Both the position numbers and the translations under genes were made by a program. The notes below the pieces were generated by a model that had not been told where the DNA came from, did no database searches, and saw nothing but the letters and a program-made list of their open reading frames with translations. Positions 7,201 through 44,049 of a stretch of 44,962 nucleotides of DNA are shown here, in pieces (position 1 is the stretch's first letter; the number at the start of each line of letters is the position of its first letter). The stretch is from Bacteroidales bacterium (GTDB lineage: Bacteria; Bacteroidota; Bacteroidia; Bacteroidales; Marinilabiliaceae), in NCBI GenBank assembly GCA_022361295.1, contig JAKSBD010000384.1, forward strand, positions 1-44,962, read 5' to 3'.

Positions 7201-7685
7201 TTATAATCTAATCCCTATACCAACCGTTAATAGTCCATTTATATTCTTCGCATTTGAATTGAGACCATAGTAATTCTTCGATTTCACAGCATTATTAAAT
7301 CCTGTGGCAGCTCCAAGCATTGCTTCCTCATACTCATTATCATGCAAACAATCGATCGACTTGACACCGAAGTTAAACAATAAATCAGCTTTCAGGTAAA
7401 GGGTTTGGGAGATGGACTTATTTAATCCAGTCCCCAGCGATAAACCATAATCAAACTTGGCAGTGTGTACTTTGTCTTTATCGTCAATGACTATATGCAT
7501 GGTTGAATAATTATAATCATCAGGAGCTAATGAACTATTAAAAACGTATTCTATCCCATTGGAAAGAGTTGATGCATAGGCATCAAACAGCCTGATGTTT
7601 CCTGATGATTACTTTTTGAATCTTCTAAATTAAGTCCTTTACCCTCATAGTTAAGAGAAACTACAGGCAATTTAAGTCTTAAACC
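7201..7685 (-). pseudogene. Decayed C-terminal fragment of an outer membrane beta-barrel protein
   Basis: On the minus strand two adjacent open frames together read like the end of a PorT/outer-membrane barrel protein. Upstream part (about 7685-7590): LKLPVVSLNYEGKGL, then a shift of frame near 7590-7610, then RLFDAYASTLSNGIEY, KFDYGLSLGTGLN, LYLKADLLFNFG and the terminal strand INGLLTVGIGIRL. The alternating hydrophobic strands and the last residues are typical of a barrel C-terminus. No start codon or signal peptide is found: an in-frame stop lies at 7686-7688 and sequence beyond it is unrelated. An ATG at 7498-7500 could still give a 99-residue product, but a truncated and frame-shifted remnant fits better. 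Confidence 0.65.
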
Positions 7686-7726
7686 TTATAGTTCCATTAT
7701 CTAACACCAACACCATTGATAACACT

Positions 7727-7864
7727 GTCGCTAATTGACGACAGCTATTGTCGTTAACTGACGACGTCACTGGTCGCTAATTGGCGACAGCAATTCTCGT
7801 CAACTGGCGACGCTGGTGGTCGCTACTTAGCGACGCATGGTGTCGTTAACTGGCGACAGTAGTT
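7727..7864. repeat. Hierarchical palindrome array: three 46-bp units, each two 16-bp palindromes at 23-bp spacing
   Basis: Six imperfect palindromes begin at 7727, 7750, 7773, 7796, 7819 and 7842, exactly 23 bases apart. They are 16 bp (consensus GTCGYTAAYTGRCGAC) with 7-base variable spacers. Odd units begin GTCGCTA; even units have T at the fifth position, so the real unit is 46 bp, repeated three times. Arms vary but mostly keep pairing: GTCGC/GCGAC, GTCGT/ACGAC, and a 7-bp arm GTCGCTA/TAGCGAC in unit 5; others need a G-U pair or one mismatch. The array is not coding (46 is not divisible by 3). The flanks 7686-7726 and 7865-7949 hold nothing else I recognise beyond a small hairpin (GCATTA/TAATGC, 7884-7901). 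Confidence 0.95.
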
Positions 7865-7949
7865 TCACATTATAGTGTTTACAGCATTAACCTTATAATG
7901 CTTTATTTGTCCACTCAATAATCTGCATTAATAACCTTACGCATATTAA

Positions 7950-8354
7950 TTATGACAATCCTTTTAGTTCCTCAATCTTTTGTAAACCTTCTTCCAGGGA
8001 AGCTACAACAATGCGAAAATGGTCATGATTGGCATTTTGAGCTGCATCCTGTAAACCGATTCGTTGTAAAGCATCCGGCATTATCTGAACAGAGCGTACC
8101 AGGTTATGAGTATTGGAGTATTTCATACCAAAACTCATTAACTCTTTAACTTTGGTGTCAACAGGTTTAAATTCAGGTGCCAGTTCAATTAATGAATAAA
8201 AGGGTATTCCATTGAATCCATCAACAGCTTTGGCATATTGTTCCTTAAACGTGTCACCAATTGTTTCGGCGACCATATTGTTCCAGCGGTTTTTGAGTTT
8301 AAGGTATAAAATGTCATTTTTTGTCTGTAGTTTAAAGTATTCTGTTGTGTCCAT
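7950..8354 (-). CDS. Small soluble protein, possibly STAS/SpoIIAA-like
   Basis: A 134-residue protein without signal peptide or membrane segments. Its layout, an N-terminal beta strand pair (NDILYLKLKNRWNN), an amphipathic helix, a strand (PFYSLIELA) and further helices, vaguely resembles SpoIIAA-like/STAS folds common in Bacteroidota, but no diagnostic motif is visible and the function is unknown. It is a single-gene unit, bounded by the palindrome array downstream and a promoter element just upstream of its ATG. Confidence 0.7.
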   Translation of the reverse strand: MDTTEYFKLQTKNDILYLKLKNRWNNMVAETIGDTFKEQYAKAVDGFNGIPFYSLIELAPEFKPVDTKVKELMSFGMKYSNTHNLVRSVQIMPDALQRIGLQDAAQNANHDHFRIVVASLEEGLQKIEELKGLS

Positions 8355-43797: not shown

Positions 43798-44049
43798 GAC
43801 TATGTCTCCTTACTTAAGCCTGTTGAATACGATTTCTGGCCTATGGAATGTATTCTTGAGCCAGTGGGAGGCTTACTCGTGCCTGTTAATTGCATTTTTG
43901 AACCCGATTGGCCACTTTTCGTTGGCTGTGGGCACTTACTAAAGTCTGTTGAATTCGATTTTTAGCCTATTGGACACGTTCTTGAGCCAATGGGAGGCTT
44001 ACTCGTGCCTGTTGGATAGTTTTCCATGCCTCGGGGCCAGTAAAATCAA
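43798..44049 (+). repeat. 21-bp tandem repeat array with 63-bp higher-order period
   Basis: About twelve degenerate 21-base units. Strongest higher-order copies begin at 43819, 43882, 43945 and 44008, exactly 63 bases apart; units 43861-43881 and 43987-44007 differ at only one position, and 43840 resembles 43966. Read in the 43819 frame, each 21-mer gives a heptapeptide of the type P-V-x-x-L-L-x (PVGGLLV, PMGGLLV, PMECILE, PIGHVLE), but stops occur at 43963-43965 and 44017-44019. It is either a decayed repeat-protein gene or non-coding DNA with two-helical-turn spacing. No start codon is evident. Confidence 0.8.

Follow-up and report, generated by a model that had tools for sequence, protein, structure and literature searches.

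The window, i.e. the whole 44,962-nucleotide stretch of Bacteroidales DNA that was analysed, carries at 7727..7857 an array of six imperfect 16-bp palindromes (no strand assigned) with the consensus GTCGYTAAYTGRCGAC and an exact pitch of 23 bp. The units occupy 7727..7742 (GTCGCTAATTGACGAC), 7750..7765 (GTCGTTAACTGACGAC), 7773..7788 (GTCGCTAATTGGCGAC), 7796..7811 (CTCGTCAACTGGCGAC), 7819..7834 (GTCGCTACTTAGCGAC) and 7842..7857 (GTCGTTAACTGGCGAC), the fourth and fifth each departing from the consensus at two positions; 7858-7864 is merely spacer behind the sixth unit. This confirms an earlier note on this DNA, which had described six 16-bp palindromes starting exactly 23 bp apart (7727, 7750, 7773, 7796, 7819 and 7842). 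The array is also reported by Tandem Repeats Finder. A general detector of evenly spaced chains of 16-bp palindromes, whatever their sequence, gave a score of 12.4 compared to at most 3.6 in five shuffles, the detected chain comprising eight units, namely the real six and two chance units after them. The array is intergenic by the open reading frame list, in line with its description as not coding. It resembles a CRISPR in having repeats and variable spacers at a constant pitch, but CRISPR repeats are about 21-48 bp long with spacers of similar length, while here an imperfect 16-bp repeat alternates with a 7-bp spacer, and no Cas genes were recognised by eye among the open reading frames near the array. 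The proposed 46-bp super-unit is weak. Identity is higher at a lag of 46 than at a lag of 23 (0.75 versus 0.63), but when the six units are permuted, 10% of the possible orders give an equally strong parity effect (order-permutation P = 0.10), and strict odd/even alternation is absent from the seven-unit sister array described below.

The array is flanked by two minus-strand open reading frames, a 134-aa frame at 7950..8354 with its 3' end towards the array and a 99-aa frame at 7201..7500 on the other side; neither contains a Pfam family, and the latter may, as a guess, be a decayed gene. A weak 20-bp direct repeat on the plus strand (7671..7690 and 7878..7897, 75% identity) brackets the array and may be due to chance. 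As to signs of an insertion sequence, no open reading frame lies inside the array and the flanking direct repeats are weak. No empty site was found for comparison, since the 7950..8354 gene is present in just two of the 13 other genomes of the genus and has different neighbours there. Elsewhere in the window, 43809-44014 holds a 63-bp tandem repeat of 3.3 copies.

We then searched the genome to which the window belongs, a Carboxylicivirga-like draft of 6.04 Mb in 739 contigs (96% complete, 4.2% contamination). Allowing one mismatch, the motif forms two arrays only, the one in the window and a second on contig C519 (4184-4337) with seven units at a 23-bp pitch. The C519 array starts 132 bp past the stop codon of a gene whose 232-aa product combines PF14848 (HU-DNA_bdg) with PF14734 (DUF4469, Ig-like), hereafter HU-DUF4469; a profile search found no such gene among the open reading frames of the window. 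Between the two arrays the palindromes are on average 83% identical, compared to 34% for the spacers (30% without their first two bases), and no clear flank homology was seen. By its palindrome, shared with an array 132 bp 3' of the gene, the window array fits a proposed HU-DUF4469-linked class, the link being a shared motif within a draft of 739 contigs with 4.2% contamination. A third array at 23-bp pitch (contig C163, 3917-3978 of locus L155) is built from a different, less palindromic unit, GTCGTTCAATCATGAC, and has no HU-DUF4469 gene beside it.

The same arrangement is found in a sister genome (G017), where a four-unit array lies 35 bp 3' of a 40%-identical HU-DUF4469 homologue, and a second, remote array of four units lies between convergent genes. 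Both loci also match Carboxylicivirga sp. McD6.26. The refuting outcome named in the earlier note, an array confined to one genome and without conserved dyads, was not observed.

To place these observations in a wider context we collected HU-DUF4469 loci from 71 genomes of the family (20 with a match) and 198 genomes of the phylum (five with a match, including that of the window). The resulting 75 distinct loci comprise 70 of the 72 places of the family search together with those of the phylum search. Two small fragments of one genome (G070) were left out, three loci (L119, L130 and L136) had no gene above the profile cut, and five duplicate loci were dropped; near-identical orthologues (L054 and L055), partial genes (L114, L115 and L122) and a doubtful two-unit case (L065) were kept. 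Usable flanks numbered 74 at the 3' side and 71 at the 5' side, one locus (L068) falling out of the 3' count with a flank of 63 bp. At a threshold score of at least 5, which was chosen after the detector results on the window array and the shuffles, arrays are present in 31 of 74 3' flanks versus 2 of 71 5' flanks. The pitch among these 31 is 23 bp in 27 cases, 22 bp in three and 25 bp in one. Among the controls, the threshold is reached by none of the 67 3' flanks belonging to other open frames of these loci, by one of 88 window tiles and by 8 of 407 other tiles, and three or more of these eight stem from loci that had been fetched by the pattern itself. The 43 of 74 3' flanks under the threshold tell against a strict rule; on inspection by eye, ten of them hold 22-23-bp arrays that are weak or degenerate. 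Among six genes from outside the family in the phylum sample, both of those in G221 fit at 23 bp; the three in G207 and the single one in G075 do not.

Unit number in the HU-DUF4469 arrays ranges from 2 to 11. For further analysis 40 arrays were combined, i.e. 30 with a score of at least 5 and a pitch of 22-23 bp and ten weaker ones recognised by eye, including that of G019 (L059, score 3.4). The next gene beyond these is convergent in 20 cases, codirectional in 13 and undetermined in seven. Since the array is present whichever way the next gene points, it goes with the HU gene. Different loci carry different palindromes, e.g. TGACCCAATTGGGTCA, ACACCCGCTCGGGTGC, GTCAACCTACGTTGTC, GGGGAGCATGCTCCCC and TCCCACGCCCATGGGA, at a nearly constant pitch, and averaging yields the loose frame TGnnCCnATnGGnnCA. 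One genome (G053) encodes seven HU-DUF4469 proteins, four of them beside different arrays scoring at least 5. In 36 arrays with a pitch of 23 bp, the 7-bp spacers are weakly dyadic at their outer positions, with pairing frequencies of 0.59 versus 0.33 expected for positions 1 and 7 and 0.47 versus 0.31 for positions 2 and 6 (0 of 1000 shuffles); the pair (3,5) is without excess. This places a dyad centre approximately every 11.5 bp.

There are also named examples. In Parabacteroides distasonis (NZ_OY725834.1) the gene for WP_048927267.1 is followed, 16 bp past its stop codon, by five units of the TCCCTAACGCTAGGGA type, 23 bp apart. On plasmid pTS2 of the spirochaete Treponema saccharophilum (NZ_AP025290.1), WP_002704221.1 is followed by five TGCGYYATTANGCTRRCGCA-type units spaced by 23, 23, 24 and 23 bp, an array below the detector threshold (2.6) that was spotted by eye and confirmed with a typed pattern. 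A second P. distasonis record (NZ_OY725757.1, L211) shows no clear array; its score of 7.6 derives from two unlike palindromes and was not counted. Both Pfam domains are present in the proteins of all three records. The neighbours of these genes (loci L213 and L212) encode a leucine-rich-repeat protein in T. saccharophilum and a fimbrillin in P. distasonis; in T. denticola, TDE_2258 and TDE_2259 likewise place a leucine-rich-repeat gene next to an HU-DUF4469 gene, judging by their adjacent locus numbers (PMC12724145).

The palindrome is common to related proteins and not to distant ones. A tree built from 72 proteins places the two with GTCG-class arrays as sisters (support 100/99), and in it the four associated with ACCC-class arrays form one clade (99/95), adjoining a protein from another family that also has a CCC..GGG palindrome. 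Among 14 genomes of the genus, GTCG arrays occur in two, those having that protein clade, and ACCC arrays in four, those having an ACCC-clade protein; a single three-mismatch GTCG match in G015, unsupported by the detector, was taken as chance. As deeper sisters can differ in their palindrome (L095 versus L100), the palindrome appears to change faster than the protein. PDB entry 4fmr is a solved, uncharacterised homologue. A structure predicted for one of the HU-DUF4469 proteins (L030) without an alignment reached a pLDDT of 37 and was set aside. Two proteins submitted to NCBIfam and PADLOC gave no match, and PHROGs returned weak matches only. No phage match was obtained.

Genes of the HU-HIG family (PF18291) were sampled as a control set (30 of 107 matches in the genus). 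On the 3' side 3 of 29 flanks score at least 5, and on the 5' side 9 of 30. Some of these scores reflect AT-rich noise, while 22-bp arrays upstream of L182, L187 and L202 and downstream at L183/L184 were judged real by eye, which weakens HU-HIG genes as a negative control and suggests that the pairing of array and gene is wider than DUF4469. The 3' flanks of L191 and L210 also contain palindrome arrays at 22-bp pitch, and the palindromes differ between HU-HIG genes. Tandem palindromes occur in other settings as well. The Tannerellaceae MAG Cf509_bin38 has many 22-bp-pitch GTCG..CGAC arrays of up to 38 units (loci L021, L024, L028, L036, L039, L042 and L043) with no HU-DUF4469 gene found in these loci (8 kb each, one of 5.9 kb). 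Short tandem GTCG..CGAC palindromes at a spacing of 18-24 bp are also found in Rhizobiales, Clostridia, Proteobacteria and Hymenobacter (L023, L025, L026, L027, L034, L040, L031, L037 and L045), where a profile search of the loci likewise found no HU-DUF4469 gene.

Arrays with the motif of a gene-linked array, located remotely from it, are present in six of eight genomes searched, with one to four in each: one in the window's own genome (the window array itself), one in G017, four in G016, one in G013, three in G053 and one in G019; none was found in G012 and G014. The remote arrays on C76 of G016 and C11 of G013 consist of just two units with one mismatch, a two-mismatch match on C45 of G016 was left out as chance, and for a second motif of the window's genome (L108) there is a remote match of two units that is doubtful. 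In the complete 6.27-Mb genome G019 the gene-linked array, which scores under the survey threshold, lies at 0.30 Mb and its remote counterpart at 4.19 Mb, i.e. 3.9 Mb apart. All 11 remote arrays are intergenic, six between codirectional, four between convergent and one between divergent genes. The short open reading frames of 73-105 aa that read through the array at L163-L165 are probably not genes.

We consider it reasonably probable, though well short of certain, that the window array is a remote row of putative sites for a cognate HU-DUF4469 dimer encoded on C519. Of the three functions offered in the earlier note, an array bound by a dimeric protein agrees best with the data, as the palindromes are shared and the spacers are not and a gene for a DNA-binding protein adjoins the sister array; binding, dimer stoichiometry, filament formation and bridging are what we infer from the sequences. 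An HU-DUF4469 homodimer would occupy each 16-bp dyad, and sites every 23 bp with dyad centres about 11.5 bp apart could support a cooperative, supercoiled nucleoprotein filament, which would form both on the array next to the gene and on the remote ones. The protein would most likely mark or bridge distant loci, for example in chromosome anchoring or insulation, rather than act as a classical one-operator repressor. This role is preferred since a gene-linked array is frequently matched by one or a few arrays far away in the genome.

An unlikely alternative is that the arrays are REP- or MITE-like dispersed repeats, small copied elements that the HU gene hitch-hikes with or accommodates without site-specific binding. 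Traces of copying do exist. In G016, three of the four remote arrays and the gene-linked one have about 45 bp of left flank, including a hairpin, and also a short right end in common, and one of them, on C49 (L159), is situated between two copies of a dispersed repeat of about 100 bp (an 87% direct repeat) found in 17 places at E < 1e-10, the query's own included. The two arrays of G019 have an upstream hairpin (about 30 bp) and much of their spacers in common, and four arrays of G053 share a boundary sequence. The shared flanks and hairpins in G016 and G019 show that some remote arrays arose by copying, and some may be passive copies; such transfer to new places also bears on the recombination site suggested in the earlier note. 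We saw no trace of this kind around the window array; it has neither spacers nor visible flanks in common with the C519 array, yet the palindrome is kept. REP/BIME elements with their RAYT transposases are likewise intergenic, dispersed palindromes in small clusters, but here only one to four remote arrays were found per genome, and the partner is an HU-type DNA-binding protein. A Pfam scan of ten neighbours of seven remote arrays revealed one DDE transposase and no Y1_Tnp (RAYT) domain, and the two open reading frames next to the window array contained no Pfam family. Further evidence against dispersal is the constant position of the arrays 3' of a single gene family, even on a spirochaete plasmid, with different letters and the same pitch. 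The explanations are not all mutually exclusive, as a protein-bound array may also be copied.

Similarly doubtful, and next in rank, is an operator function, in which HU-DUF4469 would regulate its own gene and the genes beside the remote arrays. The position of six of the 11 remote arrays between codirectional genes and of one between divergent genes is consistent with this, as are the P. distasonis array before a codirectional fimbrillin gene, the T. saccharophilum array before a codirectional small open reading frame followed by the leucine-rich-repeat gene, and the 22-bp arrays on the promoter side of some HU-HIG genes. On the other hand, arrays are found downstream rather than upstream of the gene itself (31 of 74 3' flanks versus 2 of 71 5' flanks), and among the 33 cases in which the next gene could be assigned, it is convergent in 20. 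The ten neighbour proteins sampled at remote arrays show no regulon theme, and single sites with up to three mismatches are not in excess in the window's genome (59/74 versus 156/186 for a reversed-pattern control).

That the transcribed array works as RNA, either as a chain of hairpins or as one long hairpin in a 3' UTR or small RNA, is very improbable. The window array folds strongly (-70.5 kcal/mol, z = -7.2), but strong folding is trivial for tandem dyads, and the fold is mostly one long hairpin spanning the array, not six. The earlier statement that the arms keep pairing although their bases differ is correct for symmetry in general but not for arm positions 5 and 12, where 21 units of the window motif class contain 10 Watson-Crick pairs versus 11.1 expected from independent columns, the rule being a pyrimidine at 5 and a purine at 12, so that what is conserved at these positions is not RNA pairing. 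In favour of RNA, the covariation is clear in pooled arrays with arms variable on both sides (162 versus 136.7 ± 6.0, 0 of 2000 shuffles), a value that is inflated by related units and that symmetric protein sites would equally produce. Mismatched pairs in the outer six positions of the 40 arrays, read on the gene strand, comprise 72 GT, 61 AC and 132 others, and the lack of a clear GT-over-AC bias weakens the hairpin reading. Together with the absence of any Rfam match over the gathering score in the whole window and a terminator-like hairpin, seen by eye, between the HU-DUF4469 gene and the array of G019, this speaks against the chain of RNA hairpins that the earlier note had suggested. Neutral tandem duplication without function, for which slippage and the variable unit number (2 to 11) might be cited, is the least credible explanation, given that palindromes are alike while spacers are not and that a 22-23-bp pitch recurs with different sequences beside one gene family.

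That sites for a protein are clustered next to the gene encoding it is an established principle, as in parS, parC and iterons. Like the arrays described here, ParB-parS, plasmid parC and iteron systems have clustered short dyads or iterons, often by the gene of the binder and with distant sites possible. Unlike these, the gene next to the array belongs to the HU superfamily and not to ParB, ParR or Rep (the C519 product consists of PF14848 and PF14734 and is not of the ParB family), the palindromes are clade-specific, the array lies 3' of the gene and a 22-23-bp pitch is maintained across unrelated palindromes. The array-adjoining genes belong to the HU-DNA_bdg/DUF4469 and HU-HIG families (PF14848, PF14734 and PF18291; PDB 4fmr), the latter reportedly surveyed by Burroughs et al. 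in 2017. In the open-access literature, a scope outside which most subscription papers lie, we found no paper on DUF4469, no array or DNA site for HU-DNA_bdg/DUF4469 or HU-HIG proteins and no description of HU-linked palindrome arrays, which is not proof of absence. T. denticola TDE_2259 (PF14848 and PF14734) comes up in RNA-seq work on a different regulator, and the passages on this gene contain no palindrome array (PMC12724145). The combination of protein superfamily, per-clade palindromes at a shared pitch and few remote arrays matches no system known to us, and we therefore rate the module as categorically new.

More tentatively, paralogous HU-superfamily proteins might constitute an addressing system in Bacteroidota and on a spirochaete plasmid, each drawing together only its own array-marked loci, a generalisation that we regard as possible without yet calling it probable. 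Each protein would have its own fast-diverging palindrome, repeated every 22-23 bp next to its gene and in a few places far from it, and several orthogonal protein-array sets could coexist in one genome, as the arrays of G053 may illustrate. The textbook picture of HU proteins is one of DNA benders with little sequence specificity. If the proposal is true, HU family members with their own specific site arrays would represent a new mode of chromosome organisation. It would point to a role for two Pfam families that are uncharacterised, with sites predictable from sequence alone, and the constant 22-23-bp pitch combined with freely changing letters would offer a natural code for reading protein-DNA specificity.
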